Below, piece after piece: positions 5,865 through 62,550 of a stretch of DNA of 64,000 nt. Origin of the DNA: Hansfordia pulvinata (taxonomy: Eukaryota > Ascomycota > Sordariomycetes > Xylariales); the NCBI GenBank assembly GCA_006538405.1, contig BJKQ01000024.1, positions 62,001-126,000 of the forward strand, given 5' to 3'. The translations under genes and the position numbers were made by a program. Positions within the stretch are counted from its first letter, which is position 1; each line of letters starts with the position of its first letter. The notes beneath the pieces were generated by a model. That model was not told the origin of the DNA. It ran no database searches and saw only the letters and a program-made list of their open reading frames with translations.

Positions 5865-7513
5865 ATGGCGCCTCAAACTGCTTCCGCGACTAACGAAATC
5901 TCAATGGTCAAGTTTCGGCAACATATGAAGCTTCTCCAAAGCCCTTTGGAGAGTGAAGACATGTGCCGTGATGATATCCTAGCCAACTGTGTTATCATAT
6001 CCCCGTCCCTAATCGACTCCAGTGGGAAAAGCCAGGTGGCCAAACAGTATGGCCTCTTGGCCGGACTTTTGGATGGAGATGGGATTTGTGAAGATGATAG
6101 TCTCATCACAAAGATACAGGATCCGCGAATTTTCTTCAACACGATGGCACCATCCAGCACCTTCATCTGCGGTGCCCAAGGTTCAGGGAAAAGCCATACG
6201 CTTTCGTGCCTCCTAGAAAACTGCCTAGTTGCTTCTAGCGCTGCAGAGCTACAGAGGCCCCTCAGTGCCCTCGTTATGCACTACGATACATTCATTTCGG
6301 ATGATGGTGGCTCGCCTTGTGAAGCGGCGTTCCTGTCGTCTATACCTTCGGTCAAGGTTCGAGTGATCTGTGCTCCATCAAATGCTGCTACAATCGAGGT
6401 ATTGTTTATTGTTACCGGCTCTTCGATATGGTTTCAAAGCTGACAGAACTAGAGTACATACAGGCGCTTGGGCGTAGATGTCCAACCCCTTCAGATCAGA
6501 AGCGAAGATCTGAACAGCAAAAGGATGTTGGACCTCATGGCCTTCAACAACGAAGAAAACACAGCATCTCTTTACGTCCAGGTGATCCACCGAATTGTAC
6601 GCGACATGAGGATAGAGCAGCAGATGAAAAACAGCCGCTTCGATTATGATGTCTTCAAGCAGCGCCTTCTATCCTCTGGCTTGTCTGCAGCGCAAGCAGC
6701 TCCTTTGCAGCAAAGACTGGCCCTTCTTGAAAGCTTCATGGCCCCCATCCTGCCATCTGCTAGTAAAAAGGCCAAACATAAACGGCAAGCAGGAACGGAC
6801 TGGTGCAACGAGGTGAGGCATGCTTCAATAGGCTCCGATCGCATTGCTAATGAGATACAGCCCGGCATGTTGACGATAGTGGACCTCTCCTGCCCATGTG
6901 TCACACCCGAGACTGCCTGCCTGCTCTTCAACATATGTTTGAGTTTGTTCCTCGAGCAGGAAATCACATGCGGCCGGGTCGTCGCGCTTGATGAAGCTCA
7001 CAAGGTAGGAGTCCATCAATCATAGTGGCAGGTATTTCGAATTACTAACCATAACAGTACATGTCGACATCTCCGGAGTCCACAGTATTGACAAATACAC
7101 TCCTGTCGACTGTGCGCCTACAGCGCCATTTGGGAGCCCGCGTGGTCATTTCCACTCAAGAACCATCGATCTCTCCCGCCTTGCTTGATCTTTGCTCAAT
7201 GACAATTGTTCATAGATTCACCTCTCCCGCCTGGATGCAGATTTTGCAGAAGCATCTGGCAGGATGGTACTCTGATCCGAGTTCTTCAGAAAACGGGGGC
7301 AACGATTACATGAAAAGCAAGGAATGGCATTCGCAGCTTCTCAGAAAGATTGTCTCGTTGAGAACGGGGGAAGCATTGATTTTCTCTCCATTTGCGATAG
7401 CAAACCTAGCAAGAGATGCTCAGACTGGGAACTCGATCCAGTCCGCTTACATGTGGGTAAGAATTCGGGCGCGTCTTTCATCAGATGGTGGGAGAAGCGT
7501 ACTGGCCGAGTAG
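5865..7513 (+). CDS. HerA/FtsK-like P-loop ATPase
   Basis: A 513-residue protein from three exons: 5865-6398, 6453-7004 and 7058-7513. The introns are 54 nt (CTGAC branch) and 53 nt (GTAGGA donor, CTAAC branch, AACAG acceptor), both phase 0. Walker A is GAQGSGKSHT (about residues 106-115), preceded by FFNTMAPSS. Walker B is GRVVALDEAHK at the end of exon 2. Exon 3 continues with RLQRHLGARVVISTQEP, the HerA/FtsK-type Arg plus Gln sensor block. Members of this superfamily pump or translocate DNA, or act as motor subunits of nuclease complexes; the substrate here is unknown. The ATG at 5865 is chosen because the conserved region follows it; no in-frame ATG fits better. A decayed inverted copy lies at 50.85-52.40 kb. 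It is the first gene of the cassette. Confidence 0.8.
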
Positions 7514-7924
7514 AGATCTTCGAATCGAAAGCATACTTAAAGAATCTTCATTGGCTTGAAACATATGTCGTGATGCTGGTAATACATTTTCTTTTTACCA
7601 TCCCAAGGCACTCGAAAAAACCATCCTTGCAACATTCATCGCGTGTACTGCCACCTGCCGATATCACTTACCTTTCGAAATTCAACTGAGTATGCTGAGT
7701 AAGGTACCTACCTGCTTCCTGTCGACTACTGGACGTCTTCCGATTAAAACGCCGTGCGCTTAATTGACTATTTTTAACTACTACCACCAGTCAACGAATG
7801 TATTCAAAATATGATAGAGACCTGATAGCTCTTCAAAATGGCATTCAGGGAATATGAGAACGGCCGGCCAAAGTTGCCCTATCGATCGCCCAGTCAGTGC
7901 TTGATTGACAAGGCCTTTACTAAA
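7514..7924. other. Intergenic, convergent ends
   Basis: This stretch lies between the 3' end of the ATPase gene and the C-terminal end of the patatin relic. No gene or RNA is recognised. It is moderately AT-rich. Confidence 0.4.
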
Positions 7925-8506
7925 TGCTGGTCGCATATAGGATCATATAGGCGAAAGGAACAATTCCCAACTGACAGGCACGCATTGTCGTGTTCAATCT
8001 CTAAATAGAAGATCAATTCCAAAGATCCAGCCTCCAGCTGTACGGACTCTTTTGCGGGTTGCTGACCAATGGTGTGAAACAAATTCGCGAAATGTTGTTC
8101 GCGGCCGTCACAGCTGTATACAAGGCAGATACCAACACTTAGACGGATAACCGAACTAACAGCTATCAGGAAAGCTTACCAGCTAGGGACGAAGCTTTGA
8201 ACAGTGTGACGTTCAGCGCATTTGTGTTGGAAAGATGGCATTCCAAAGGCTTGAAGTGAGGAGCTGCGCCCCAGTCGACGAGGATAAGGGAACTTTTGAA
8301 CTTCAATATGAGGACAAACTTATCGTGCCAGATCCCCATGGTTGATCGTGGTCAGGTTTGCGATGTCTTGTGATCAATCTGTACCCTCAATGACCTGTAC
8401 AACGGACGGCTTCTCATGCCCCAGGTCGTCGATAATTCGGTAATATGGCAGAATTTTTTAACCGTAGCTCGCGAGGGCTTGCGTCAATTTGAAGTTAGGC
8501 ACTCAT
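7925..8506 (-). pseudogene. RING/patatin-like gene relic (cassette copy A)
   Basis: On the minus strand from ATG 8506, pieces match the intact gene at 58.2-60.7 kb. They include LQI near the start, RIIDDLGHEKPSVVQVI and LILVDWGAAPHFK. After a large internal deletion the C-terminal piece follows: VQLEAGSLELIFYLEIEHDN then SVGNC, near 8085-7930. The start codon is followed by a stop in place of the conserved Trp of MTPW, and further stops and shifts occur. Roughly 2 kb of the intact gene is missing. It lies between the ATPase and gene U, opposite in strand to both, as in the other two cassette copies. Confidence 0.75.
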
Positions 8507-8896
8507 GACTGCCAGAAGAAGACTCGTAGTTTGATACTATCAAGTGTCGATTCAATTGAAAACACTGGTAACGATATAAAATCTGTGCCCCACTTGACAT
8601 GTTGTGCGGGCTGTACAGTGTCCCAGAAATCATCTGGGCTTGCTCCACCAGCCCCACCGGTAGTGACTGAAAACCAAAATCTGCTGCGCTAGAGGCAGTG
8701 CAAGATCCTGAAAACGGATTCCAGGTACGACAAAACTCAACTCATCACCTGGGTGCCTCATTGAGGTTATCTATGCATATATATCTAATGCATCTGGGCA
8801 AAAGAAAGTTATTGAGAGGCTTTCGAAAAGACAAGCCCTTGACAAGAACCATAGATTCCACTCTTCAAATCGCCTTTTTTCTACCCCAACTGAACG
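8507..8896. other. Divergent promoter region of the patatin relic and gene U
   Basis: Short open frames only. It separates two divergently oriented genes and probably holds both promoters, as does the matching segment at 50.1-50.4 and 60.7-61.0 kb. No specific site is claimed. Confidence 0.35.
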
Positions 8897-10932
8897 ATGT
8901 TGCGCTCGCGTCGCAAGAACGACGAGACTGTGTTTGATAAAGATCAGTTCGAAATCTTGGAGAAGCTGAGAAAGGCGAAGAATTCTTATGATGTAGTGGA
9001 CGAAGAATACGAGGACATCCTGTCGAAAAAGAGGAATGCAGATGGAAATCTGAACAAAGAAGCTTGCAATGAAATCCTGGACTGGATCCGAAATCATTCC
9101 AAGAAAGGTAATATATCAATTAACCGTGCCTATAAGACGCTGACAACGCGACAGACAAAGAGGGTCAACGTGACCAACCGGGCCTTTCTGCAACGAAACG
9201 CAGTCGCTTAGAACGCGATCAGTCGGAAGAAGAGATACGACGAAAGCCAGCTATCAGCCGCCCCATAAAACAGCTGCGGTCGGAGGCTCCTACCCAGAAG
9301 AGGGAGCACCAGGCATCTGACCCCGGGGTCAGAATCAGAGAGGGTCCCTCCCCAGATCGCGCGAACAAAAAATCTCGCCCGGAGCCTCCTGCGTCGAAGC
9401 GAGAGCGTCAAGATTCAGATCTCGAAGTGAAGATCAGGGAGGCATCTTCGACCGACCGTCCAAGCAAGAAATCCCGTCCTGAGCTAGAAAAACAATCCAA
9501 TCAGCACACGGATGCTGCCATCCCGCAAGCGGTTACTCAGGGAGGTGGAAAACTCATGAAACCCTTTTCCAAGTTTGCCCGTGAGGAAGGTGTTTTCAGC
9601 TCTTTCAGTCACTCAGATACTCGCGGGGAGCGTGCCAGATCTCCAAGAGTCGCTATTCAGCAACAATCAGCTCACAATGACTCTGCTCCCAGGGAAGGCC
9701 AAGACAGGTCACTGGTTGATCGCAGTACGAAAGGGTATTTGCCACAAACCCGCCAAAGATTTCAATCCCATGTCGAAAGCGGCGAGGAATCGGAAGAGAC
9801 CCAGAAAAAAGTCCAAGCCCGACGCCCCCCAGGTCTCTTGTCTCGGCAGCAGTCTATTCCCAATGGGCCATCCCAGCACGAGAGAGGCATGGGGATACAA
9901 GCCGTTCAATCCCTAGTTTCGATGACCAGCTCAGGCAATTCGCAACCAAGCCTACTTGATGATCACAATCTTGAAGAAATCTTGAAGATGTTCCCAACTA
10001 GGCTTCCAACGGGAGAGGAACTACAAAATACGGTTTCGAGTCAAACCGTTGAGAAAATGCATTACTTGGATCATGTTTCCGGAAAGGAAGTCGATGCACT
10101 CATCATTGGGCTCACGCCACGTGGCCAGCTTCTAGTTGCATTCCAGGGCAGAAAAACAGAGTTTCCCGGGTATCGAGCAGGTGCATTAGTCCTTGCGTCT
10201 GAATGTCGGCAGGAAAAGGCGGCCTGGATCGCAAGTCGCGGCTCATCGCCTTTGGAATATCGGACTGCTGCTAGCTTCAGTGGAAAGAAGTTTTCTGACT
10301 TTGATCTGCTCCTTGTTGCTAGCGCTCCAGATCGAGGCAGCGAAAACAGGGCTCGGTTTAATTATCCCGTCACTGTGATTTTGGGAAAATTCCGGGACGA
10401 GCAATTCATCACAATCGTCCCGAGATCCACGTTCAATTGGGTTTATGGCCAGAGGAGAACGGAAATTATGTATGCAAGACACAGAGATCGAGAGGGCACC
10501 CCACAGCCTCAGGCGGCGATCTCGAAGGGCTTGATCCCGGATTTCGCTGGCACATTGCCGTCCGGAGCACCAGAATTACTGTCATCGACAGAAGAAACCC
10601 GGCCAGCCAAACCAGTGACCTATCAGTCAAAGACACCAAGTGCGGGACGAGGGTTCGCACGAACAGTGTCAAGATCTCCCGAACCTGATCAAGGATTGTC
10701 GGACATGGAGTCAGATTACAGCGTCGATCGGCAATCCAAAGGAGGCTTGACCCCACGTTCTGGAACTACAGCTGCCACCTCTCCATCGCAGACACCTGAG
10801 CGTACCCTTACCGCGAAAGCCTCGAAAACTCCGATGGCAGGGAGTTCTAGGCTCTCCCCCAAGAGGCCAGCCAGACATGTTCGCTACGATCTGGATGCTT
10901 CCGGTTCGGATTCAGGGGTGATTGACACATAG
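8897..10932 (+). CDS. Cassette protein U, largely disordered with a C-terminal folded domain
   Basis: Exon 1 8897-9107, a 47-nt intron 9108-9154 (GTAATA donor, CTGAC branch, GACAG acceptor), exon 2 9155-10932; 662 residues. Residues 1-70 are charged and helical (FDKDQFEILEKLRKAKNSYD). A long Ser/Arg/Lys-rich, low-complexity part follows, with two 33-residue tandem repeats. Residues of about 370-530 look folded, with alternating hydrophobic strands such as VDALIIGLTPRGQLLVAF and VTVILGKFRDEQFITIVP. An acidic/serine tail ends DASGSDSGVIDT. I recognise no family. Basic stretches (KKSRPE, KRER) suggest nuclear location, which is an inference. C-terminal relics of the same gene lie at 49.84-50.12 kb and 61.02-61.20 kb, always next to the patatin gene. 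Confidence 0.75.
9283..9480 (+). repeat. Two 99-bp tandem repeats inside gene U
   Basis: Units 9283-9381 and 9382-9480 each encode 33 residues with the shared pattern E-x-P...KRE-Q-SD...V-IRE...DR-x-KKSRP. The phase is kept, so the duplication lengthens the disordered region without breaking the frame. Confidence 0.75.
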
Positions 10933-11695
10933 AAGCGGTAAGTTCCACGTTCGAGGTTACCAATGATTGTCGCCTTCTCCCAGCACTAGCTAATCCACAT
11001 AGTGACTTATTTGCCGTTGTCATTTACCGTTCCTTTTTCCACCCGCCTTTACTTTCCGACCGTCGCGGCTGTGCTTTTCTGGTATTTTCATCGATCTGGC
11101 TCGCACTAAACTTGTGTTGGCATCCTCTTCTCATATCGAACTGTCCTTACCGCACTTTGCCGCTTTCTTTTCGTTTTTTTTTTTTTTTGCTTAGGTCCTG
11201 TCACTACCGGTAGAATTCAAACGCAATTTTTACTTTACGCGATTCGTTCACTGTGGTTGCCCACGTGAGAATGACTCTATTCTATGATAATAATGGATTA
11301 TCAAATTTAAATTGATAGTCGCAAGCTGTTGCACTGAGGCTTGTAGTTGGGCACAGGTCCCGACTTCGCACGCAACATAATTTTACCGCGTGATGATCCA
11401 ATTCTGATTTGAGCTGAGTTGTTACGTGTAGCGACGAAAGTCCGAGACACCCCGAAGGTAATAAGATTTTGGATCGCTACTTCAGACCCACTTATGTCTG
11501 GAACCTGCCGGCTCAGCCAAGTGGCCCCAGCTGGGAGCTTCTGGCCATCACGCTTGTGCTGCGGTACTGGCTTCCCAGCCGCTCGATCGATCCACCCAAC
11601 GCAGGTGGATCGCTGTACGCTCAACATCGCTGCTCTGAAGGCACCAACAGAATCCTCCATCCATCAGCCACGTTTCTCGCCATCATTAAGATATC
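10933..11695. other. Intergenic: gene U 3' side and C2H2/JmjC promoter
   Basis: Contains a 16-T run at 11174-11189. The part from about 11500 to 11695 is copied in degenerate form, on the minus strand, at 62.35-62.55 kb, joined to the start of the JmjC coding relic. The promoter thus travelled with the gene. Confidence 0.5.
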
Positions 11696-13152
11696 ATGAA
11701 TGTCCAGCAATGCCGTTTGTGTCACCAGAAATTCAGCCAGAATTCATTCCCTCGCCACCAGCGACAACCTCATGCCCGTTGCAACCGATGTCTGGTAGTT
11801 TTCTACGGGCACAAAGCTCGACGTCACAACTGCGCCCGGCAAGATTCTGGGCGCCAGTGCGCCCTCTGTAAGGCATCGTTCGTCAGAAGCAATGCCCTGG
11901 AGAAGCACGTCAAACTGGCTCATGAAGCTGTCCGATGTGGGAAAGTGATCCTTCAAAGTCAGACCAAGTCACACATTTTGAACTGTCACGTCTGCAACCA
12001 GTGGTCCAATCTCGTTCAAAAATATCGTCAGAGTGCAGAAGCAGCCATACGAACAGCGAAAAGAGATCTGGGCAGTCTGCTCGATCATGCCCCAAGCCAT
12101 TCTCGCTTGCAGAAGGAGGGCCCTACCTTCCTTGAGATTCTACAACGATGTACTGTCGGGCGCCCACTATCAGCAGCCAGCTACATGTCCAAAGACGAAT
12201 TTGCCGACGATGAGTTTGTGATCTGCTCGACCGAAGAAGCGAGAACCATACTGGAGAAATCAAGCCCAAAAGTACCACTCATGATTCCTCAGGAGCTGAA
12301 CGAAGATACTTTCTGTCTTCCTATGGATTCTTTCATCACATACTTGTCGTCCTTTCCCACCCTTGATGTCCACGACTTCCAGCAGAGATATCACAAATCG
12401 TCCCCGTTGACCACCCCGAGGTCCTTGCCATCACGAGCGGCCATCCAAAAACTGCAAGACCCTGCTTACGGTCCGATCAACATGCTGAATCTCGGTGGCT
12501 GCAAGCCCCATCCAACTCCGTCTTGCTTGACTTCGTTGCCCTCTTACTCTGTAATGGAAATCGCCAAGACAGAGAGTGGGAAGACGGATTCACCGGTCGC
12601 GATTGACCTGCTTGATTCGACGCGATTCCAACTGTGTGCCAAGAAAGGTGCGTTTTCGATGCCACACATTGATCGTCATGGCGTCATGACCACTGTGTTC
12701 ACCGACTGCGGCGAGAAGCTGTGGCCAATGTGGCATCCACGCATCCTTCCTGACTGGGCATCATCGAGCGCAATACAGCTAGGAGCTCCTATAGGGATCT
12801 ATCTGTATCCTGGATGTCTCCTCATCCAACCGTGTGCAACAGTTCACGCACCGTATTTCTTACTAACGTGGTTATGAGTGGGACTATGCATTGGGATAGC
12901 AGAGAAATTCTGCGAGTTCTACAACTGTCAAAGCTTGAGGCAGAATTCCCATTCATCACCAACGAAGATACCGCGATGGATTTCATTCCGAAAATCAGAC
13001 ATTTATTGAGACTTTGGGAGACAGGGTGTTTGCCTTGGTCATGTAGCTCTGCAACTCAAATACCTGAGTGCAAAAAAATTCTCCAGGTATGTGCCCGCTA
13101 CTATTTCTGGTCCCCATCTGACCTGGGTTAGTGGTTTGAGAATTTCAATTAG
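11696..13152 (+). CDS. C2H2 zinc-finger / JmjC-like dioxygenase protein with a frame break
   Basis: The N-terminus carries zinc-finger-like pairs (CRLCHQKF, CNRCLVVFYG) and a C2H2 finger CALCKASF...HVKLAH. The C-terminal part has the JmjC core: FSMPHIDRHGVMTT with the HxD iron ligands, GEKLWPMW, then PGCLLIQPCATVHAP with the distal His. The frame then breaks at about 12862 in a T run. One added base continues naturally as LTNVVMSGTMHWDS...TNED to a GTATGT intron at 13087-13131 (CTGAC branch) and a short last exon ending at 13152. Total about 470 residues. If translated, it could be an Fe(II)/2-oxoglutarate oxygenase acting on protein or nucleic acid; all three iron ligands are present. The shift may be a sequencing indel. 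Relics lie at 61.9-62.55 kb. Confidence 0.7.
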
Positions 13153-13517
13153 CCGGTTCCCGCTCTGTGCAACGACAGATCGTCGTTGCAGTAGACAAAG
13201 GAATTTGGTCTCTGATACCTTGCGAATTCATTTTTCCCACCTTAGTCCGCTCTTGTCATTCTCTAATGTCATGATGCCGAAGCTCGTCTCTAGTTTCGTT
13301 CTTGCTGTAAGTGATACTGCGTTGCAGGATTTGGTAACAGGTTTTGGTCAAGCTCCGTGGCCCCACCGCCAGCGGATCGGAAAACGGATTCGAGTATTGT
13401 TCTCCTGTGGGGATTTGTATTTATTTAGCGGTAGAGAAGTATTGTTTCTAGATGTCAGAATTATTTTGTTGGTCTTTTCTCTATCCTACAATCATCATTG
13501 ATTTGGCTGCCATTGCG
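13153..13517. other. Intergenic, promoter side of the transthyretin-fold gene
   Basis: Short open frames only. The last 50 bases are similar to the bases just upstream of the paralogue at 49.1 kb. No other element recognised. Confidence 0.35.
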
Positions 13518-14123
13518 ATGGATATCACTTGTCAGGTGCTTACAAAATCACAAAGGCCTGTTGTGGGCATGCGTGTCAGGCTTGCATGCTCGGCACTATC
13601 GACCTACTACGAAGGGACCACTTCTCCCAGCGGTCTTGTCGACCATTGGAATCCATTGTGCATGCCAACAGCTTCTATCCTAGACACCCACCCGGTGTGC
13701 TCCGTCGTATTCGCCGTGGCCGAATATACAGAAAACACCCCTTGGCCCACCATTCAAGTCGACCTTGCATGGACTGAACCCCTTCACCATTACGTCTTAC
13801 TTTGCTGCGATGATCAGAGCTACAGTGTGAGCACCTCCACTAATGAGCCCTCTAAGCGATTAGCGCCAACGCCAAGTCCAGCGGGTGCTCAACGAGATCG
13901 TTATGCGGTGCAGCCACCCATGTTGTCACCAATGGAAGGTGTTCAGTTTGTGAGGGATGAAGGGGTGACTTTGGAAAGACGTCCTTTCGATGGGGCGGCG
14001 GCTCGCCGACCAGGTCGCGGAAGGGGCGGACGCCAGGCCGCAGGATTGAGACGGGGCAATGAAGAGCTCGACTATGAAGCGCTCGGCGATTCTGAAGGGG
14101 GAAAACGAGTACGACGCAACTAG
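13518..14123 (+). CDS. Transthyretin/HIU-hydrolase-fold protein lacking the catalytic residues
   Basis: 201 residues from ATG 13518. The first about 120 residues align in pattern with 5-hydroxyisourate hydrolase/transthyretin: ITCQVL...RPVVGMRVRL at the N-terminus, a T-x-x-G-L-V turn, then TPWPTIQVDL and HHYVLLCCDDQSYSVSTSTN at the C-terminus. In the enzyme these ends are HVLD and the YRGS tetrapeptide. Here His becomes Gln and YRGS becomes STST, so hydrolase activity is unlikely. A basic Gly/Arg-rich tail follows (RRPGRGRGGRQ), absent from the paralogue at 48.75-49.10 kb. The start is chosen because the paralogue also begins just before this strand. Role unknown; a binding or scaffold function is inferred. 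Confidence 0.65.
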   Translation: MDITCQVLTKSQRPVVGMRVRLACSALSTYYEGTTSPSGLVDHWNPLCMPTASILDTHPVCSVVFAVAEYTENTPWPTIQVDLAWTEPLHHYVLLCCDDQSYSVSTSTNEPSKRLAPTPSPAGAQRDRYAVQPPMLSPMEGVQFVRDEGVTLERRPFDGAAARRPGRGRGGRQAAGLRRGNEELDYEALGDSEGGKRVRRN

Positions 14124-14850
14124 CGGGCGCATAACATGCATGGTGGCGCGCCTAATGATGTAACAAAGGTTCTCTTGCTCATAAGCGTCGCTTAGCTGGC
14201 TAGGCAAATCTCCACCTAGAGGAGTCCATGGGATGCGGCACGTATGCAAGTTAGACCCGACAGGCTGGTACCGAAACAATCATCTAACTAATCTTGTCAT
14301 CGGTCCGTCTTTTGTGACTGGGGTGAGGCCGCCATGCATTGATGTAGCGGATAATCTGCCACCAAGATGAGGTACCATTGGTTAGTTCACCGGACATCGA
14401 CTCCCACCATGTTGGTTTTAAAAGGCATGATGCGATATGTTGGAAGGTGGAGCGGCAATTTTCACGCTTATGCAGTGTGATTGCCTTGGCACACAACAAC
14501 CAACGCCAATAACCAACACCAACAGCCAACACGAAATGGGTTTACAGACAACTTGGCCCGCGTTAGGCTCACCCATGTCCAAATTCGCATGTACGATACA
14601 AAATGACCAACTGTCGTCTTTGCAATAGCTCAAAATCATTGCGGTTGGATTTGACTGCCATCTAAAGCTAGAACACCCAAGCCATGATAACAGCGGCCCT
14701 TCCCTCGGTCCTAGCACCAAAATCAACCATACAAGATCGTGCCTACTCGTACACCTGACATCTAGACTCATCGAAGCCTCGGCCGCTCATGTAGACAGAT
14801 CCTTGATTGGTATGACTGGCAGGGTTGCTCAATCATCGATGCGCATTCCC
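14124..14850. other. Convergent intergenic region
   Basis: Lies between the 3' ends of the transthyretin-fold and coiled-coil genes. Open frames here show no domain. It contains a run of ccaacaccaa-type motifs near 14500-14530. No gene supported. Confidence 0.4.
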
Positions 14851-15501
14851 CTAGAAGTCGGAAATGGTGTCGCTCTCGCTGTCGCTGTCAAAGTCGAAAG
14901 CACTGGCTGGATGTGGGGACCTCTCTGTGTCGCTGACGTCATGGGAGATTCCCTGATAGCCTCCCTGCTCAACCGCGCTTTGATACTCTTTGAAGGTCTG
15001 ACTAACCGTATTGGCAATCTGAGCAATCAGCTGGTCTTGCTGGCGGATCTTGTGATCGGACTGTTTGCTATGTGACTGTAGAGCTGAGAATCTGGCCTCC
15101 AATTCTAATGCCGCTTGCCCATCTGACTTTTGCGCTTGGATCTGTCTGTACAGATGACTATTCTCCCGCTCTAGTTCGTCGATCCGCGCCAACAGCTGCT
15201 CCTTGCGGGACAAGCCAGGAGATAATTTGATACGGCGTTCGGATCCTCCATGTGCAGGCGCCGGATGTTTTCGTTCCTCCTGGCTGCTGTCGCCTTCCCC
15301 GTCGCTTTCCAGTGGGCGCAGGAAAAGCTTTGTCTCGTAGGGTTTGCGTTCGAAGTTGGGTCTTTCTGAAGACCGCTCCGAGCTGGGCGGGGACCTTCGG
15401 TTCGACTCTTCCTGGGAGGAAACAGAACTGGGGGGTGAAACAAATTGCACTTGTCGGGGAGCGCCAGGTAATTTAGGGAGCGGTTTTCTGAAAGACTTCA
15501 T
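14851..15501 (-). CDS. Coiled-coil cassette protein
   Basis: 216 residues from ATG 15501 (MKSFRKPLPKLPGAP). A Ser/Pro/Glu-rich N-terminal half is followed by a coiled coil of about 65 residues (ARIDELERENSHLYRQIQAQ to IRQQDQLIAQIANTV) and an acidic tail FDFDSDSESDTISDF. Its start is supported by the relic at 47277, which begins MKLFGKPLPEV. No enzyme motif is present, so it is probably a structural or adaptor protein (inference). It is convergent with the transthyretin-fold gene and tandem with the short helical gene. Confidence 0.7.
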   Translation of the reverse strand: MKSFRKPLPKLPGAPRQVQFVSPPSSVSSQEESNRRSPPSSERSSERPNFERKPYETKLFLRPLESDGEGDSSQEERKHPAPAHGGSERRIKLSPGLSRKEQLLARIDELERENSHLYRQIQAQKSDGQAALELEARFSALQSHSKQSDHKIRQQDQLIAQIANTVSQTFKEYQSAVEQGGYQGISHDVSDTERSPHPASAFDFDSDSESDTISDF

Positions 15502-15660
15502 TGCCGCGAATTCAGGGAAGGTTGTTACGAAACAGTGAAAAAGGGGAGTCAATCAAACTACAAGATAGATGTCTTGTATGCCTTTCGATGAGGTTCCGGT
15601 CACTCGACTGTAAGGGAGCAAGCGATTCGTCTTAATATATTCTCCGGTGTCCTCCTGGCG

Positions 15661-16190
15661 TCAATCTGCACAACAGACAACAGAAAACGGAAAGCGGAAA
15701 ATGGGCACTAAATCTTGGACTAAAAGCTGTTTATGGAGCCCTTTCCGCCCCACCAGACATCCTACAGCCAATTTCACTCGCGTGACATGGTGCTTCATCC
15801 CCTGCTCTTCGTCTTGGACCGCTTTAACTTCCTCAAGTAATCCACCTTGTGGGAGCACTCTGACTAGGTCTTTTGCGAACTCTTGAAGGCCGGACAAGAT
15901 CGAACCAATTGTGTGTTCCACCCTGAGAATGATGTTCTTGATCGTGTCAAGTCGTGAAAGAATCAATATTTGTGCATAATAATATTATCATTAGCTGTTG
16001 TTGACACTCTTGATCTGGCACTCATGGCTTACGCTTGAATATCTCTATAGGCAGCCAGAGACTTGCCCGTGAATCCAGCTGGTGAAATGATGTCACGTAT
16101 CATTTGGGTAGAGCATGGCCTTTCGCGAGGACCGGGAAACTCGACGCCCTGGTCCATCCCTTGAAAAACCGATTTCAGTCCTCACTTAAC
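15661..16190 (-). pseudogene. Short helical cassette protein, broken copy
   Basis: The C-terminal part (15966-15661) reads ILSRLDTIKNIILRVEHTI then FAKDLVRVLPQGGLLEEV, clearly related to the intact copy at 46570-47030. The expected first exon, near 16190-16040, retains DDFNTLSED, but the conserved Trp that follows has become TGA and the frame shifts further on. The intron donor GTAAGC remains near 16035, but no usable acceptor joins the two parts. I therefore call it a pseudogene. Confidence 0.65.
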
Positions 16191-19164
16191 GTGTTGAAGT
16201 CATCGGGTTAGAGATTGCATCGTGCATTCTATCGGTATGACTTGGGCAGGTTGCCTTGGTGCAATGTAAATAGTCGATGCAAGTCTGTCGCCCTTTTCTG
16301 TAGAAAGACATGTTTGACATATCCCCAGTGCTGTGGATAGAACCGACGATTTCCATTGCCCGTCTTTGGATTCCTGGGGTTCCATTCTGGACCAAAAAAG
16401 ACCTGATCGTCCTTGAGGGAAAATTGAAATCATCACCCCGCATATCAGATCAGTGAGACATTTTCCCACATGAAGTTCTCCAACATCTACATGTTCATTT
16501 TAGCTGCCTTTGAGACTATGTATGTCATACCCACGTGCCCCGATGTCTGTGCGTCCGATGCCGTCTATCGCGACCCATGCCTCTCCAATATCGCTCCCTC
16601 GTGCGTCTCATCACCCTCGTGAAATTACCATACTAAATTTGCGCTAGCATCAGCAGGTTGTATCTCACTCATTGTGCTGCGAGCCTGCATGACTCCAACC
16701 CGGCATTCGTGTCTGTTACTTACGATTTTGTAGCCGGGCAGTGCCATGACTTCATCCACGCGAGTCTCCGAAATCCGATCAAGTCAACGAATGCAGAAGC
16801 ATGCGTTGTGTGGTGGGTCTCTCCAATCTCGTGTCGGCTTGGGTTTGAATCTCATGTAAAGGCAGATAGTGTGCAGGGAAGGACCACCTATCGTGCGCCA
16901 ACATGCATATCCAGCAGGGTCGGTCGGACTACAATATGTTGATGTTCAGACCTGGAATGGTAGATTCTGTTACTCGGTCTGATTTCATGCAAACAACTCT
17001 CATCACAGTCACAAGCACGGCTTGATGTGTGCAAAGCCAGATCAAGACCTCTCCGCAAGTGAGAAGTGAAACTGGCCGGTCTGCCACATCGACCGAACCG
17101 AAATCCACGTGGGTACCTTTGCCCGCCGAGACCCCCGCCTCTCACGATGCGGCCTCCTCCTCGTCGAGCGACGGAGGTTCAAATGCTTTGGGTGACACAA
17201 AATAACATTCACAAAACACCCAGTTGATACAGACCTGCACTTCTGCTTATGTTGAAGTTGGTTCGGCGTTTTTCACATCTTGGCAAACCATAGTGACCAT
17301 CACGCCAACCCTACCACTGCCCATATAAAGCGCCGAAAGTACTGCGAGCGATTCCCCTGCTGCAGCATGATCAAGTGTATCGGCTATCTATGAATGGACC
17401 AGGGGGGTACCGATGCATGTAATAACAGTGTTGGAACTGCTATAAAGTTGTGTGTTAGGTTTTCTGTCACCGAGGTGATCAGCTTCTATTTGATAATTGG
17501 TCTCACTTTCACTGCATCGGGTGCCATGTGGTTGGTTTTTCAATCTTGTTCTTCGTGGCTCACTCTCTTTACACAATATGCGTCGCTCTTTCGCACTCCC
17601 TCCTAGAACAGCGAAATTCCAGGTACGGCTCACGGTATACGATGAAGTATAAATCTGAGCTTGTCAGACCTGATGATGAGGTGGCTACATCAGAGCATTG
17701 TTGTTCTAGCAGTATATACTGGCGTCTTGGTTTTACGGAAACAAGAAAAGCCGCCGCAGGTCTACATGAAATCAGTCGATAAAAGACAATGGAAGTTCTG
17801 GAGGAAAGGTTACCCATTCGCAAACAGGAATCTGTCACCCATTCCCAGGTAATATTTCACCTCCATCATGCAATGAGTCCCGACTGCGAAATACTGCACA
17901 CACGACGCCGTCCAGAGTCCAGCAACGCCTACAGCCATATCCCTTGACATCCTCACTCCTGCTAAGCAATCCCGGCTGAATAGGTAAGCATGCTAAAGTA
18001 TGTCGCTTTTGAGTTTATCTTCAGCAGCAATATCGTCTTGGACAGTCCGGAATTTTGTTCAATATCGGTGCGACATATCCTAATTCTCAATTCAAATAGG
18101 GGGTTCGTTGCCATTTCTAAAGCAAAAGTGAACATGAGTTGTAGAAACAAGCCCATAAACTTGACGTTTTGACCACATAGTTTTGAACCCTACATAAATT
18201 TCTCTTTACTTGCATTGCTTTCTGAAGAAAGCGCGGTAGCTCAGGTCAAGGTCGGAAATATGGCCGCCAAGCCGGTATCAAATATTTGATCTGAAGTGGC
18301 ATTGAAGGCATCGCATGATGATACTTACAATTGAGAAGATCAGCGAAAAGATCATTGACCACGCCCTGCCATACGTCCACATAACCCTACCACCTTGCAT
18401 GGATGCTATCTCAGCTTTGAGAGTACTAAGAAGGGCTAAAAAGCTCGATTTGTTCCCACTTTCTTGTTCCGAGACGAACAAATCACAATAAGAGAAAGCT
18501 ATGTTTTGAGTAGGATAAGTGCTTGCGATCTAATAGCTGCGTGCATTACAAATCGGAGTGTCGCCTGGGTCTGGCAAGTAGTACGAGGGTTTTGCAGGTC
18601 GAGATTTGTGGTTTACACTAGCTGGGTCCGCGCATAGATCGCTAACAGAGATCCATAACATGCTAAAGCTACTCAACAAGCCCACTAAAATGTTGCGCCA
18701 CCGATCCCTTCCCCTCAGCCGTCAATGCATGGGCAAATGCCTTAGCCCAGCAAGCCCTACTTCCTCATCTGCCGGTCTTCAATTCGGATATTGACCACAT
18801 TTGCATATATGATGGGCGTGGGGGCTATGCTACATTGACGATGTCTTGAAAAGCTCTTGAGAAAACATGCATCCACTAACGCTAGACAAAGAATGGCCCT
18901 TGAGCAACGTTTTGAATAGCCTTTAGAGCCTCGGCGGATGTCATACTCCGCTCGAAGCACGCATCAGTCACCACAGAAGTCAGTCCCAGTCACTGCGTCC
19001 GGACGCGATTCATTGCTTTGAGCAGAGAAAGGAGTTGTTTACAACCCCAGACGGCCAATGTTTTCAAGGGTTAATTTCTTAGGGCTCGGAGAATTTATAT
19101 CAGTTTCGTAATTTTCAGGTGATGACAGGGGGTATCAGAAATTAATCATATTTCAAGGCCAGAA
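16191..19164. other. Long gene-poor stretch
   Basis: About 3 kb with only short frames on both strands (longest 94 codons). None has a recognisable domain, and no exon chain with good splice sites emerges. A hydrophobic frame at 17394-17606 might be a membrane fragment, but nothing else supports it. No tRNA, rRNA or repeat array seen. It separates cassette copy A from the kinase-like gene. Confidence 0.45.
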
Positions 19165-25010: not shown

Positions 25011-25017
25011 GAAACAT

Positions 25018-44541: not shown

Positions 44542-44586
44542 GGCAAATACCGGATGAGAGAAAAGGCTCTGAGGCAATGTCAAATT

Positions 44587-50379: not shown

Positions 50380-50841
50380 GGATTAGCACATGTAGTAGCT
50401 GAAAACGGATTTCTGATCTCGGTCCATTTTCAACGTAGGTTTTCCGCTATCAGCTGCGTGATATGCCATTAGGGATATAAATGTACAAAGGTGTTTGTCT
50501 AAGCTACAATGCATTGTCACGTGCCACCTGCCAAAGCCCGTCGCATTCGGCTGGTTGTTCTCATGACCCTCTGGCTTCATGTCTTCCCCAGCCCGCGGAA
50601 GCTTACCCTTCAAGAATTTTACACCGCCCACCGAGTTTCCAACGATCTTGGAGACGGGGCCTCCTGCGTGATTCGGGTCTTGGGATGTGAGAATCGATCT
50701 CGCGACATTGCAGCTCCCCACACGCTGGGGCCTAACCCTTCTGTCGCGGTCTGCCTGCCAGATACCATGATTCTCAGCATAAGTGGATATTTTCTGGTGC
50801 ATAGGTTCTATCTTGGACCTCTCCTGGGGTCTCGCAGGTGA
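50380..50841 (+). pseudogene. RING/patatin-like gene, 5' fragment (copy B)
   Basis: From ATG 50563 the frame reads MTLWLHVFPSPRKLTLQEF then GDGASCVIRVLGCENRSRDI, matching MTPWLQIFSSPQRLILQES of the intact gene. Homology stops near 50760 and the frame runs into unrelated sequence. The 180 bp upstream also match the promoter of the intact gene (60.70-60.92 kb, opposite strand). Confidence 0.7.
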
Positions 50842-50851
50842 TTCTTGCCCA

Positions 50852-52402
50852 TTAGTCCTCCATCACGCATCTCCCGTCATCAAATGAGATATATGGCCGA
50901 CTTCTGATGCATAGGTATGTGGAGCCAGCAAAGTCACCCAAGCCGGCATCTTTTACAAGATTGCCTATTTCAAAGGGAGAGAACATTAAAGCCTCCCCAG
51001 TTCTCGGCAAAACATACTTCCTCAAGATTAGCGGATGCCACTTCAAGTTGCTGGTTTTATATCGCTCGATACTTCTGGTGACCTCGTGTTCATACCCCAC
51101 CCTGCAAGATGCCCACGCAACACTTGCGCTCACGCAGAATATGTAAGACTGAGCACGATTGTCATCGAGCAACATTGATCAGAGCGGAGGAAACCGACGT
51201 TTCCTGGATCGATCTGAAGCTACGTGCTCCAGGAGTCATTGTAGTCGCACAGTCGAAAGTAAGCTGGCTGTTTATTGGTCAAGACCACTGATTAGGGGGA
51301 CGTGGACGTGTAATGAAGATTTCAGTACAAAGTCCGGGTGTCATTGTCCTTTAGTGGTTCTGATTTGGGATCCTCATCAAGCGCCACAACCTGGCCGCAA
51401 GTTGTTTCTTGCTCAAGAAACAAACTCGAACAAATGCTGAGCAGCAAGCAGGCAACCTATGCTTAGCACAGAGGCATGAGAGGTCCACTCTAGTTAATAA
51501 ATCGGGGCATGGTTGTCAGCTCAGCATGAAAGTCTTGAGAGAGCGAAACGTACATCGTTTTACCATTTGGTTACTGCACGAGGCCGACGTTCAGACTTGC
51601 CTGCACTTCTTGTTGGGAAATCCTTCATTATAAGATTCTTAAGAATCATTAGTCTCTGCTGTAAAAGAACCACCTGTGTTGCTGATAGACCGAGAGATAA
51701 GAGTTGTTGGTTGAAATCGGAGTAGTTGAAGAAGCCTTCTACGCTCTGCTGCCACACTCGTGTTTCGCGAAGAGTTTGATGCAGCACCTGCACGTAAAGA
51801 GGTGAAGTATTTTCCTCGTTGCTAAAAGTCATGAGACCCAGCATTTTTTTGCTGTTCAGATCGGCGCTCTTCATCTGGCTGGCGAGCTTGGACCTCGACG
51901 TTCACGTTTTTGTATGTTTTCTGTTCTGTTCAGTTGCCGTGATACCTTGATTAAATTCGGGACATTACCTTGATAGTGTCAATTTGAACATCGTACGGAT
52001 GGCTCGAACTTTGATATTAGGGATAGATGACTGAACTGCTGCTTCACATGGCGATCCTCCGTCATCAGACATGAATGTATCATAGTGCACGACAATAACA
52101 CTTTAGGGACTGGGAAGATTTGCAGCATCTGACTCAACCAAACAGTCTTCCAGAATGCATGACAACGTGTGGCTATTTCCGAAGCCTCTTGCACTGCATA
52201 TGGAAGTGCTGGACGGAGCCATCGTGTTGACAAGGATCCGCGGATCGTATTGCTGCCTACGTGAGTGGAATGGACCTTCTTCTGAAGCCTCTGTGTCATA
52301 CAGAAGGCTTGCCAAGAGCCCGTACGGACTTGGAGCTGACGTATGGCCCTCGTAGTAAATCCAAATTCGAGGGCGAAAGCACACAATTGGCATGGGCATC
52401 AT
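50852..52402 (-). pseudogene. HerA/FtsK-like ATPase relic (copy B)
   Basis: Three pieces follow the exon order of the gene at 5865. They are NTMAPSSTSICSARGFGNSH (Walker A lost: Gly and Lys replaced), then SADLNSKKMLGLMTFSNEEN and LLSLGLSATQVVLLQQRL, then LPRTGEALMFSPFEIGNLV at the C-terminus, stopping at 50852. Stops and shifts separate them, and the Walker B segment is unreadable. It is tandem in strand with the U and transthyretin-fold copies. Confidence 0.8.
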
Positions 52403-52729
52403 TATGTGCTCTGTTTTTATCTTCCAAAGGGTCTTTGAGAAGTCTCATGTGATTTTTGGAGCTGTTCTTTCCGGAAAATGATCATCAATGATTCGACAGG
52501 AGGCATCATTATGGCGAGGAACAAGAAGTAAGCAAAGTGCGCGGTTAAATTTGATATACGGATAGAAAATAGCTGGGTTTCGGCAAAACATTGATGATTA
52601 GAATAATGGTGCCGCACAAGAAAAAGGGCACAAGAAGGTCACATATGATTTGAGAGTGAGGCTGGAGACGGGTTAAAGCATGTACCGCCACGAGATACCG
52701 CTCAGTACTCCATGTGTAGATATCCTGGT

Positions 52730-53086: not shown

Positions 53087-53230
53087 AAGACTGATCTTGT
53101 AACACCATAGCGAGGCCGGCAGCATCGCTCCATGCTCGCCAGCATGAATAACCTTACTATTATTCTCGACAGCCAGGGATCTTGCGAGAAGCAGAGTAGA
53201 TGCATCCGAAACGTTGGCATTGGGGTGTGC

Positions 53231-53252: not shown

Positions 53253-53289
53253 CACAGGGCCAAGTTCGTCCCTCCACGTCCACTATCAT

Positions 53290-53775: not shown

Positions 53776-53789
53776 TGCAACTCTGGAGG

Positions 53790-58213: not shown

Positions 58214-60694
58214 TTATTTGGGTGCTGCACACCAGGGGTTGGAAAATGCATCCAAAGTACGATACAGCACGGACAGCTCAGTCTCTAAATTGAACGTTGG
58301 CTTGTGCTGAGGTTGCACAAGATTTCGGCTTCCATCTGTGTCATTCAGGTTTTCTCGCCATGGAACTTCCAGCCCTTGGGCTTCAATGAGCCCTCGCACC
58401 TGATGTGGACAATTACCAATCGGAAATCTTGCACCATCAAATTCGATTTCAAAAACAAGCATAGAGGATAGGGAATTGGCCTCCAGATCCAACGACCGCA
58501 CCATGGAGGTGTTTCCAGTATTCTGGAACAAGGGCGCAGCGTTTTCGTTGCGATTGTCGCAAAAGTATACCAAATTCGCAGATTGGAGTTTTCTCTGTAA
58601 GCTTGCGAGTGCCGGCCCCCAAGGCAGCCGACATAAGACCCGCAGTTTACAAGTTTCCCGACCAGAATAGAATCGCGGAGTCTCGGCAAGTTCAATATAG
58701 AACAAGCATCCGAGTAAGCGGTGGGCCAGGGATGCCAGGTATTGATCATCGAATATGCCGCCGCGATATCTGACTTCAAAATGTCGCGCATTCTTCCTGC
58801 CATCCCTGTATCTATAGATGTTAGCTGCGTTCTCATAATGAAAAGTTTCCAGCAATGCGACAACTGGGTTTTGCACTTCGTACCCTATTTTTTGCCGTTC
58901 CCCAGCGTTGTTCGAGATGGTCTTTCCTGAATGTTGAACACGAAGAGACGGACCATTCAGACACTGAATGTCATCCAAACTCCATTTATGATCGCCACCA
59001 AAGCTGATGTATCTCCGCTTTGAGAATGGTGTCTGTTTGACTTTGATCCCACGAACGGAATGGAGCTCTTGAGAAGCCCTAGAGACAGTCCAGTGTTGGC
59101 AGCATAACGCCAGAGCAAAATATGATCCCACACCACTGCAGTGAACAACATCAAAATGGTCTCGGAGAGACATATCACCCAACATCAGCTTCGATTGTAG
59201 GCCCTTCAAAAAGTCCGCTGTGAGGTATTTTCGATGCAATGGGACATCCAGACGTAACACCCTCACAGATGCAGTGGGTGGCCGTGGAATCAATATCTGG
59301 CTGTTTTTGCTCTCACAGAATGGGCAGATCGGTATGGTAAATTCTCCATTCTGCGAGATTGAAGCGTTACCGAAGGATCGTATACATGGGCCGCAAAGTC
59401 CGTGGCCGCAGTCGAGGGAGGTTTCAGGGGGTGACAGGAGGCAGGCTAGGCAAGTAGTCTTGCTGAAAGTGCCCCGCAGGAAAGCCTGCGAAGATCTAAG
59501 CACGCCCACATGGTATTCCGAGGCTGACAGGTTGGACTCGCGTGCTTTGTAGGCTATTTTGCAAAACTTGACTTTCACAGCCAACGCAGGAAGGCTGCTT
59601 CGACAAGCTTGTAGGGTTTCTTCGATTACACGGCTGTACATGGCTTTGTACATGTCATCTGCGAAGAACGCTGTGCTTCATTAGCAAGGTTCTCCCTCAG
59701 TTTGAAAATACTGACAATGTCCCCCTGCAGGGTAAGCATTCATATGGAGTGCTGACGCGATGAAGTAGCTCAAAAGGTCGTTGTTTTGCTTTGAAGTCAT
59801 GCGTAAAAGACATCCGATGTGATGTGCAAGATTTTCAGGCTTGAAAGATGACTTTCGCAAAGCCCATACGAAATCAAAGTTTCCACTCATTGCAGTAGAA
59901 TAATGGACCAAGGCGTCGTGGAAGATCCGACGCAAATGAATGGCAGAGAATGCCCACCTCGAAGCGTGTCGACGACTGAACATGGCATCCGCTTGCGACA
60001 GAACATATGCACTGACTTGCCGCGATGTGGGGAGCAGATGCAAGCTCTCAAAGCTGTCCCAGAACATCTTCTCAATATCTTGGTGCTTATAAAGCTGTGT
60101 AGGATCCGCCATCTGTTGAACCCTCAACATGTATCTCCACATCCTCTGTTTGAAATCTTCAGATGTAGATTCGGAAAAGGTTTTGCTCACGAGGATTAGT
60201 CGGGGCTTCGATCTGATGTCGTACTGTCGAAGGCGAATCCATGATGCAAGAAGCTCCTGAACACCAGAAAGTCCCATATTATCGTCCATGAAGATGACGA
60301 CTGTTTGACAAAGGCCTGCAACAAGGCGAGAAAACATGCTGACAGCTGCAGGGAAGATCGATGACCCCGGGATTAAACCTTGAATAGTGTAGCACCCGGG
60401 ACGGCCATGTTGATCGAGTGGTGCCCTCACTGTCTTGAAGCGAAGAGCTGCCCCACTGTCAACCAGGAGAATTGGTCTTTTTGGCCCAGGGAAGGAGTGG
60501 AGGGATATCGCGTCCGATGGGGTAGGCTTCAGCCTGCGGGGAGCTGCGATGTCACGAGATCGATTCTCCCCTCCAATGACCTGAATCACGCAGGGGGCCT
60601 CGTCTCCAAGATCATCGAAAACCCGGTAGGCGCTGTAGGATTCTTGGAGAATGAGCCTCTGCGGGCTGGAGAATATCTGGAGCCAAGGGGTCAT
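58214..60694 (-). CDS. RING-like / patatin-like protein with degenerate active site
   Basis: Exon 1 60694-59716, a 57-nt intron 59659-59715 (GTCAGT donor, CTAAT branch, CGCAG acceptor), exon 2 59658-58214; 807 residues. The ATG at 60694 is supported by the fragment in copy B. The N-terminal half has RPILLVDSGAALRF and a folded region with VVIFMDDNMGL. A RING-like cluster follows at about residues 396-441: CLACLL, CGHGLCGPC, CPFC. A patatin fold then starts (ASVRVLRLDVPLHRK, HFDVVHCSGVGSYFALAL). In active patatins these are DGGGxRG and GxSxG; here the glycine loop is gone, and only one Ser remains in a changed context. The later catalytic Asp region reads SNNAGERQ instead of DGG/A-type. Lipase activity is unlikely. 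It is the only full copy of this cassette member. Confidence 0.75.
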
Positions 60695-61018
60695 GATGAA
60701 AATTAGTCGAATGCGACGTGCCCAGGCAAGGTGACGATGCACAGTAGTTTAGACAAAGAGCTTCTGTGCGTAATTGAATTCGCGCACGCCTTCGTGCTCG
60801 ACTCATAGCACATTTACATCCCTGGTGGCCAACCACGAAGCTGAAAGCGGAAACCTACGTTAAAAGTGGACCGAGATCAGAAACCCGATTTCAGCTACTG
60901 CATGTGCTAATTCATTGACTGGAAAGTGCCCGGTCTAGTGATGAGCAACGATAAAGAAGCATCACGACGAAGGAATTCGAATGCAGGATTCGGATAGCGA
61001 GATGTCGAACGGCTATGC
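60695..61018. other. Divergent promoter region of the patatin-like gene
   Basis: About 320 bases, of which the left 230 match 50.38-50.56 kb in the reverse direction. This conserved upstream sequence probably holds the patatin-like promoter. Confidence 0.45.
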
Positions 61019-61200
61019 ATGTCGGACTCTTACGGAGAGTCTGAATCAGGGTAAGCCCATCGCGAACCGAGAAAACCTCATCGCTGCGGACGCCTAAGAG
61101 AGCCAAGGGAGTCCTATGGTCAGCGGTTCCAAGGTCGGGGCCGGCCGGCCCATAGAATGATCTCAAGCAGCTGAAATCAGAATTCCAGTGCTAGCAGGTC
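61019..61200 (+). pseudogene. Gene U C-terminal relic (copy C)
   Basis: Aligns at nucleotide level with the U relic of copy B (both contain gagagtctgaat, then ggggccggc, then tagcaggtcat). Stops interrupt all frames. The strand is the same relative to patatin as in copies A and B. Confidence 0.55.
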
Positions 61201-61888
61201 ATATGTGTCTTTATGCGAGTTAGTTTTTTCTGTTGTCATATGCTGGTCAGATTTAATGCATTTGTTTGTTCAGGCGCAAGATATTGCTCCTGCTTTCGCT
61301 TGCCGCCTCCCTTTCGTTGCCATCGCTCTGTCGTCGCTGTTGACATTACCCTCATGTCTCCTCATGTTGCGAATGTGCTTTCGTAAACGCTACACGTAGG
61401 GATTCTGCCAACCACGCATTCGTGTCGTACAGGCAAGGTACATGGCTGGTCGCGATCACAAAGGATGATGTAGTTTCTGTGCGAGTCGCGCAGCTAGATC
61501 GCCATGATTGTTCTTAGATGCCCTGGAAGCCATGTAAAGATCGCGCGGCGTGGAGCCTGAGACGATGTACTCAGTGGTAAGCGCTGAAACTGCAGGCCAT
61601 ATCTAGGGGTTGTGGGCTGCGCAGCAAAACAGCCTCCGGGCGTAACGGGTGCTAGAGCAGAGCGGGGTCGCTATGCTTAGGGGTACTTGACGTCCAGAGA
61701 TCTGGAGTGCCAAGTTCCGACCCGCGTCTCAGCCAATCCAATCTACTACATGCGGGTCAATCAAATCCCAGGCTAGCTTGGCCGACCCGCGCATGGATCG
61801 TTATAAAGCTACGTAAGCCAACTATGAGATATCCGTGAACTCCCTGAACCTTGGTCTACGCAGCCATCTCCACACCCTGGTTGCTACA
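61201..61888. other. Intergenic of copy C
   Basis: Contains segments shared with 49.30-49.62 kb. Lies between the U relic and the JmjC relic, as does 10.9-11.7 kb in copy A. A hydrophobic 64-codon frame at 61205-61399 is not conserved. Confidence 0.4.
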
Positions 61889-62125
61889 ACATTGCCCGAC
61901 AATGCCCCACTTGTGGGCGGGATTTCCGCCTTGATTCCATCCGTCTGCCGACATCAACGACAGCTGCATAAACGCTGCAAGCATTGCTCGGAGGTCATAT
62001 ACGGGAGAAGATGTGGCCGATCGAATTATGGACGCCAGTGCCATCTTTGCCAGGTCTCATCCGCCAGAAACATCAAGCTGCCGCACGGACAAGCTCACTG
62101 TGGAGAAGTTACCCTGTGCAATCGG
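61889..62125 (+). pseudogene. C2H2/JmjC gene N-terminal relic, plus copy
   Basis: Reads QCPTCGRDFRLDSI, then after a shift RHQRQLHKRCKHCSEVIYGR and YGRQCHLCQVSSARN. These match QCRLCHQKF, RHQRQPHARCNRCLVVFYG and SGRQCALCKASFVRSN of the gene at 11696. Truncated after the finger region. Confidence 0.65.
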
Positions 62126-62129
62126 GCGC

Positions 62130-62550
62130 ATTGCTTTTGACAAACGATGCCTGGTAGAGGGCGCGTTGGCGCCCGGAATCCTGCGGGGCTCAGTTCTGGC
62201 GTCGTGCTTTGGCCCCATAGAAAAACACCAGACATCGGCTGCAGCGGGCATGAGGTTGTCGCTAAAGGCGAGGGAAGGCAATCTGGCTGAATTTCTGGAG
62301 GCACAAACTGCGTTTTTTGGACTCATGGTGGTGTACCGGGGATGGTGAGGAACTTGGACGACGAGGTGGGGGAATCTTTTGATGCCTTCAGGGCAGCGGT
62401 GCTTGCTTTATAGTGATCCATTTGCGTCAGGTTGGTCTATTTGCATGGCTGGCAAGGCAGGACCGCCACAGGAGAGCGCTACCGCCAACAGCTCGCAGCT
62501 ACTTGAAATTGAAATTGGGACAGATTCTGGGAAAAAATGGGTCTAAGTAG
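62130..62550 (-). pseudogene. C2H2/JmjC promoter and N-terminal relic, minus copy
   Basis: The reverse complement matches 11.50-11.93 kb: about 200 bp of promoter, then the finger-coding part. The zinc-finger frame reads SLCLQKFSQIAFPRL, stop, RQPHARCSRCLVFFYGAKAR, so CAG-type codons have become stops. It meets the plus-strand relic tail-to-tail at about 62127. Confidence 0.65.

Follow-up and report, generated by a model that had tools for sequence, protein, structure and literature searches.

What unit links the related gene groups that recur along contig BJKQ01000024.1 of Hansfordia pulvinata, and by what route has it multiplied? The window analyzed here is a stretch of 64,000 bases, positions 62001-126000 of that contig (C24, 247,259 bases; other contigs are abbreviated in the same way), from a genome of 46,805,188 bp. 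It carries relatives of genes for a HerA-type ATPase, a RING/patatin-like protein (PLP), a protein termed U, a C2H2-JmjC protein, a transthyretin-like protein (TTR), a coiled-coil protein (CC), and a short helical protein. We propose, with a probability of roughly 0.6, that these genes belong to a module proper to an accessory, mini-chromosome-like compartment and copied between end regions by recombination. Gene calling from sequence alone was weak (codon bias was low), so genes were modeled by hand from the copies.

Genomic distribution and gene order of the module

All genome matches to JmjC (65 of 65), U (55 of 55), and CC (13 of 13), counted at E <= 0.001, fell on nine contigs, namely C23, C24, C29, C32, C40, C43, C47, C48, and C60, which total 1,008,881 bp or about a fiftieth of the genome. 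The searches scored best candidates only; match numbers are hence lower bounds, and absence from the core genome is valid at that sensitivity. Clustering of matches by hand gave about 30 JmjC loci, 21 U loci, 10 CC loci (on C23, C24, and C29), and 11 accessory HerA loci, the last count leaving out core matches. HerA had 38 matches; outside the module contigs these comprised five to exons on C13 and one weak match on C3. The proposal in the initial annotation that the genes duplicate together was thus borne out, with relatives linked in many copies and, HerA excepted, detected in one genome compartment.

Gene order was strongly conserved among these loci. A same-strand JmjC gene followed within 3 kb of U in 21 of 21 loci, all 8 old ones included, against a mean of 1.0 and a maximum of 7 in 10,000 random placements on the same contigs. 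CC lay downstream of JmjC on the opposite strand in 9 of 10 loci (random mean 1.0, maximum 6), and HerA preceded U in 10 of the 11 accessory HerA loci, the exception in both cases being copy B of the window. Old copies kept this order at protein identities of 34-68% in the pieces matched. The core order is U, C2H2-JmjC, TTR, then opposite-strand CC; in the younger lineage this core is preceded by HerA, PLP, and a deaminase gene, with ferric reductase and kinase-like genes on its far side. Further copies on C24 lie at the left end, at 28.2-34.7 kb (decayed but collinear), 133.7-141.1 kb, and about 204.6-209.8 kb, and at the right end.

Copies A, B, and C in the window

Self-comparison of the window verified three related gene groups, A (5.9-16.2 kb), B (52.5-46.8 kb), and C (58.2-63.0 kb), which had initially been described as one seven-gene cassette present three times in fixed order. 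Copy A reads HerA (+), PLP remnant (-), U (+), C2H2-JmjC (+), TTR (+), CC (-), and short gene (-). The following features were located (window coordinates unless marked C24).

1307..21805 (+) copy A, extent of the gapped blastn alignment to young copies, from the outer end to the kinase-like gene
C24:63307-68599, 65870-69715, 70154-73084, 73502-76981, 81223-83805: copy A alignment blocks, blastn of the C29 right and left copies against C24, 77-87%
3516..4526 (-) OTT_1508-like deaminase, A; Pfam PF14441 E 1.4e-17; common to the C29 and C48 copies
5865..7513 (+) HerA-type ATPase, A; exons 5865-6398, 6453-7004, 7058-7513; 513 residues, intact in the splice model
7960..8442 (-) PLP remnant, A; tblastn from the copy C open reading frames (ORFs), E 4e-8 and 8e-9
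8897..10932 (+) U, A, 662 residues; exons 8897-9107, 9155-10932; open model
11696..13092 (+) C2H2-JmjC, A, broken; tblastn with the intact C24 left-end copy
13518..14123 (+) TTR, A, 201 residues; weak Pfam PF00576 match, E 0.0032
14851..15501 (-) CC, A; genome matches in 10 loci
15664..15984 (-) short helical gene, A; tblastn matches in B and at C24:30209-30421
19165..21516 (-) kinase-like gene, inner part of A; Pfam Pkinase E 2.3e-4 (under cut-off), Kdo E 1.2e-4
50855..52457 (-) HerA remnant, B, several frames; tblastn
50506..50757 (+) PLP fragment, B; tblastn E 8e-26
49933..50076 (-) U remnant, B, 48 residues; tblastn E 6e-6, tblastx
48688..49125 (-) TTR gene, B; tblastn E 2e-47
47526..47753 (+) CC fragment, B; tblastn E 7e-10
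46836..47012 (+) short helical gene fragment, B; tblastn E 5e-14
43668..44538 (-) ferric-reductase-like gene, inner side of B; tblastn with the C24 left copy, E 1e-67 and 3e-43
58217..60748 (-) PLP gene as two ORFs, C; RING E 6e-4, under cut-off
61103..62128 (+) U-region DNA (61103-61684, 68% to B) and JmjC fragment (61949-62128), C
62127..63000 (-) inverted JmjC 5' fragment and upstream DNA, C; positions 4628-5509 of another genome stretch align to 63000-62128

Copies A and B were collinear and inverted in the self BLAST (best blastn E 1.9e-41), with A 6120-7513 matching B 52246-50852, A 10624-10767 matching 50076-49933, A 13527-14144 matching 49095-48551, and A 15004-15966 matching 47753-46836. 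Six of the seven named genes are recognizable in B, some as fragments only; its HerA gene is split into several frames, U survives as the 48-residue remnant, and no JmjC gene is detectable (best tblastn E of 5.6 in 48601-50900). The fixed order initially claimed therefore stands for A and inverted B, JmjC excepted, but not for C, which is composite. PLP, the U-region stretch, and one weak JmjC fragment of C do lie in the relative strand of A, as had been stated for three of its members. Opposed to the rest of C, however, is a further JmjC fragment (62127-62276), together with its upstream DNA as far as 63000. Intergenic DNA is shared as described, since common stretches extend outside coding frames. 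B and C aligned in blastn at 50321-50756 and 60969-60501 (E 3e-70) and at 49363-49924 and 61684-61103 (E 1e-50), and A and C at 11428-11895 and 62599-62128 (E 1e-62), the DNA blocks common to A, B, and C being merely 68-76% alike.

The unit exceeds seven genes. The deaminase and kinase-like genes of A also occur in other copies, the latter being 86-90% shared with the C29 left and C24 left copies, and the ferric-reductase gene adjoining B is likewise common to other copies; at its site, ORF 43029-44030 matched Pfam NAD_binding_6 (E 1.3e-4). The C2H2/JmjC frame of A is broken near 12,860, and 5 of 12 young JmjC copies have a single open frame that matches the query in full. A GC-rich short-unit array (5300-5540) lies directly upstream of the copy A HerA gene and has matches in the C29 and C48 copies. 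Between HerA and U, the C24 right copy carries an insertion of ~4 kb (C24:241068-245001) that is absent from the C29 left copy; a 72-83% relative of it occupies C24:58851-62097, directly upstream of copy A. Judged by match starts, C43, C47, C32, and C60 seem to have this insertion and C23 right, C48, and C40 to lack it.

Predicted proteins and their relatives

In profile comparison, the copy A ATPase matched PDB HerA 8xau (E 1.2e-5) over its C-terminal part, while its Pfam HerA and FtsK matches were under cut-off. Foldseek searches with the model of a relative, P0001 (predicted local distance difference test score, pLDDT, 68.5), returned 36 of 50 listed rows titled HerA, the others being titled TdpAB (6), 'a bacterial protein' (5), and anti-phage complex (3). 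By visual reading, this model has a four-helix insert (helices 200-207, 218-237, 243-252, and 257-272) between strands 187-190 and 290-295; residues 18-94, where an N-terminal winged-helix extension was sought, have pLDDT below 50. The C-terminal motif hxhxxRxRhsxDsGx[ST], matched with residue classes for h and s set in this analysis, reads MWVRIRARLSSDGGRS in copy A and is present in 115 of 120 listed relatives. Taken together, the copy A ATPase is predicted to be HerA-type, with the motif published for fungal 'novel genomic elements'. The brief account of fungal clade-6 HerA elements in PMC10853773 is the nearest published match to the module. Those elements are alike in the HerA-like fold, the four-helix insert (in the model of the relative), and the C-terminal motif, but the section of that paper devoted to them mentions neither JmjC, TTR, or U as partners nor terminal copies or a location on accessory chromosomes. 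Among the titles and abstract openings listed in searches of mainly open-access literature, none describes a HerA-JmjC-TTR module on accessory chromosomes.

Relatives of the HerA-type ATPase numbered 1360 at E <= 0.001, and those named among the 120 listed are fungal. The core HerA gene (within C13:833000-840000) has the same C-terminal motif, and no match to U, JmjC, TTR, or CC was found in that 7-kb stretch. A tree of 45 rows, including 42 of the 120 listed relatives and the core copy joined from exon pieces, placed core HerA in a clade of what we take to be Sordariomycetes, Leotiomycetes, and Eurotiomycetes (support 100; nearest sister 77). Outside this clade are accessory HerA and a second group (98), made up of Apiospora, a Xylariales species, and presumed Dothideomycetes; the joining of accessory HerA to the latter group depends on midpoint rooting. 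The protein tree shows accessory and core HerA as separate lineages and would fit transfer or old paralogy alike.

The module JmjC protein itself had no score against Pfam JmjC; its profile matched KDM2A (E 2e-4). Foldseek with the model of a relative, P0127 (pLDDT 76.2), gave KDM7, KDM2A, PHF8, and PHF2 in the top 29 rows (template modeling score 0.37-0.45 by query). The iron ligands H340, D342, and H403 (HxD...H) were invariant in 14 of 14 aligned relatives, taken from the 16 found, and also with the C24 copy added. The family is narrow: nine of the 16 database proteins have a species name, four of those being Apiospora. In two of the 16, P0121 (judged by its Pfam label) and P0126 (judged by eye), the gene model fuses a ferric reductase to JmjC, so that the two genes may be neighbors in Apiospora. 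These comparisons indicate that the protein is KDM2/KDM7-like with conserved metal ligands, a predicted histone-demethylase-like enzyme. By eye, U is basic and of low complexity; with residues 335-560 as query, no relatives were found at E <= 1 in 5.8 billion proteins, and neither U nor CC matched a named Pfam family over cut-off. TTR scored 18.5 bits against Pfam PF00576 (cut-off 25.3), with residues 3-104 on profile positions 1-106 of 109, and no transthyretin in the PDB was matched by sequence; we treat it as a putative transthyretin/HIUase relative on a weak, nearly full-length match under the Pfam cut-off. For PLP the RING part alone scored, under cut-off. No patatin match was found in Pfam, and the patatin label, taken over from the initial annotation, is presumed.

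Pairwise ratios of nonsynonymous to synonymous change (dN/dS) between A and the young copies were low for five genes: HerA pieces 0.17, 0.21, and 0.34 (66 codons), JmjC 0.15-0.20, TTR 0.17, U 0.23, and deaminase 0.31. These are plain pairwise values without significance test, and leave out JmjC of the C24 left and C29 left copies (0.675; shifted frame in the latter) and the A/B TTR pair (too distant). Such values suggest that the five proteins were probably in use, and their genes under selection, while the copies diverged, though the JmjC of A and some HerA genes are now broken.

Proposed copying between chromosome end regions and rival explanations

The twelve young JmjC copies lie on the nine module contigs, two each on C23, C24, and C29 (inverted) and one each elsewhere; all are within 33 kb of a contig end, and 11 of them lie no more than 12 kb from it. 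Ten other sites matched the leftmost 10 kb of C24 at 96-100%, and the right and left ends of this contig are 97.8% identical over 11.6 kb. Telomere repeats were found 24.5 kb beyond the right HerA gene at the right end of C29 and 52 kb before the HerA gene at the left end of C43, HerA being the telomere-side gene in both. None were found at either end of C24, at the left ends of C23, C29, C32, C47, and C60, or in the end stretches read of C40 and C48. A telomere-junction word occurred on 24 contigs, of which one (C43) has the module, which is thus not a general subtelomeric repeat; the word fails to mark certain telomeres, among them those of C1, C2, C10, C13, and C29, and of these five contigs C29 alone has JmjC. 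GC was 0.49-0.51 in parts of C24, C29, and C48 against 0.56-0.62 in twelve 10-kb stretches of C1-C10; on C23, C32, C40, C43, C47, and C60, 300 bases each were seen.

The initial annotation had further suggested a large mobile element, which the borders of the copies, compared for A and the young copies aligned, do not support if a discrete unit is meant. Alignments stop at differing outer positions, and one pair remains alike beyond an apparent inner end. No terminal or target-site repeat beyond chance was found at the A borders (longest 8 bases; random 400x400 pairs mostly gave 8-9), so that a discrete transposon is not supported. A candidate common inner end (position 19460 in the C29 left copy) was rejected as a CA microsatellite interruption in C29; A and the C24 left copy remain alike to C24:84196 and C24:14796, respectively. 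The outer end at window position 1307 coincides in the C29 right copy with a 500-base repeat present on several module contigs. Identity to A varies from 87% at HerA to 76-77% at U-JmjC-TTR and 86-90% at the kinase-like gene; together with the differing borders, this is better explained by long-tract copying and exchange than by a fixed unit that transposes. Synonymous divergence (dS) along A was likewise uneven (HerA 0.06-0.22, deaminase 0.40, U/JmjC/TTR 0.48-0.56), as mosaic exchange would give. Repeat-induced point mutation was considered as a source of divergence, but the classified changes had no clear pattern of it: C-to-T before A made up 76/507, 53/234, and 36/121 changes (raw counts), and was the largest of four classes, by a small margin, in the youngest pair (C24 right/C24 left, 36/121).

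These data are consistent with long-tract copying between the end regions of small chromosomes, by ectopic recombination, gene conversion, or break-induced replication, which would create new copies and so account for the nearly identical, inverted pairs on single contigs, with older copies decaying in the interior; we hold this mechanism with moderate confidence. Several observations weigh against the proposed module and its copying. The contig ends close to young copies are for the most part places where the assembly broke inside the repeat, not chromosome ends; C23 and C24 stop inside the module, and the telomere link is therefore taken from C29 and C43. A 2.7-kb piece of the outer flank also lies inside C23 (74.1-76.7 kb, 95%), and old internal copies occur in both orientations with no visible age gradient. 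HerA is absent before all 8 old U loci, its frame is broken in C29-type young copies, and HerA by itself is no specific mark of the module, since ATPases of this type are widespread in Pezizomycotina and one is encoded on core contig C13. Moreover, the linkage counts are not independent because the copies descend from each other.

The genes might instead be passengers in ordinary subtelomeric segmental duplications, small-chromosome ends recombining with no benefit to the chromosome. Shared blocks do reach beyond the module on both sides: compared with C48, 3 kb of outer flank tested were 100% identical in C47 and 93% in C32 and C40, and an inner block of 13.6 kb is also common to copies. The passages on Colletotrichum higginsianum in PMC5576322 tie subtelomeric repeats to segmental duplications and resemble the present case in end-near blocks, one orientation to the telomere, and duplication between ends. 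The repeats there are of transposon families at all 24 subtelomeres, whereas the module consists of several genes, is apparently under selection, and is missing from 23 of the 24 contigs with the telomere-junction word. The low dN/dS of the five genes and the order held in old copies argue for retained function, and we consider the passenger account rather unlikely. A giant Starship-like transposon, inserting near ends with a cargo of HerA, JmjC, ferric reductase, and PLP, would account for many copies in both orientations, and the pertinent section of PMC12134995 counts ferric reductase and patatin-like genes among the prevalent or notable genes of these likewise multi-gene elements. The absence of common borders, and of terminal repeats or target duplication at A, makes a Starship improbable; no DUF3435 match, and thus no captain, was found in the genome (in a search without positive control).

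Duplicated haplotigs or misjoined repeats would fit the contigs breaking in the repeat, 7 of the 10 matches to the C24 left end running to a contig end. Such an assembly artifact is very improbable, since C24 alone contains eight or more copies or fragments that have diverged to many different degrees (about 65-98%) and blocks of A, B, and C have the low identity given above. HerA/FtsK ATPases are also known in viruses, which would suit an origin from a large DNA virus that integrated and left a remnant, HerA having been its packaging ATPase. The introns, the fungal origin of the named HerA relatives among the matches listed, and the lack of a capsid or polymerase among the window proteins scanned (part of the window ORFs) render a viral origin extremely improbable.

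If the module is proper to accessory chromosomes, what would maintain it? The zinc-finger KDM2/7-type dioxygenase might erase repressive methyl marks on histones, and HerA might act as a pump on DNA; retention of the module for a benefit to the accessory chromosome itself, through JmjC anti-silencing and HerA DNA pumping, is a plausible but tentative suggestion, to which we give a rather low probability. More speculative, and quite unlikely, is a self-maintenance kit of parasitic mini-chromosomes, in which the zinc-finger-guided demethylase would avert host heterochromatin, HerA with U, TTR, and CC would drive segregation, amplification, or transfer, and end-to-end copying would keep a working copy at each end. 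Fungal DNA transposons encoding TET/JBP dioxygenases, as introduced in PMC12730594, are similarly selfish DNA with a presumed anti-silencing dioxygenase; the module has JmjC, of another enzyme family, and no transposase among scanned proteins. Epe1 of fission yeast (PMC7192584) is likewise a JmjC protein opposing heterochromatin but is host-encoded, with a non-enzymatic function reported. For the question of how fungal accessory chromosomes persist, multiply, and move between strains, the module offers testable candidates in a predicted chromatin eraser (JmjC) and DNA translocase (HerA); it likewise places the unexplained fungal HerA elements of earlier reports in a genomic context.

Other repeats and ORFs were recorded in the window. 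A repeat at 57279-57983 and 52677-53113 (89-90% DNA identity) has a longer ORF that matches the dynamin GTPase effector domain (PF02212, E 5.5e-6), and a second of 0.5 kb at 24521-25007 and 53294-53786, outside the cassette, is 73% alike. An ORF at 27236-28480 has ankyrin repeats and a weak F-box match. The ORFs at 34992-36017 and 63446-64000 match each other by tblastx; the first, which has no Pfam match, lies within a second shared block, C24:24434-28206 versus C24:96584-100429.

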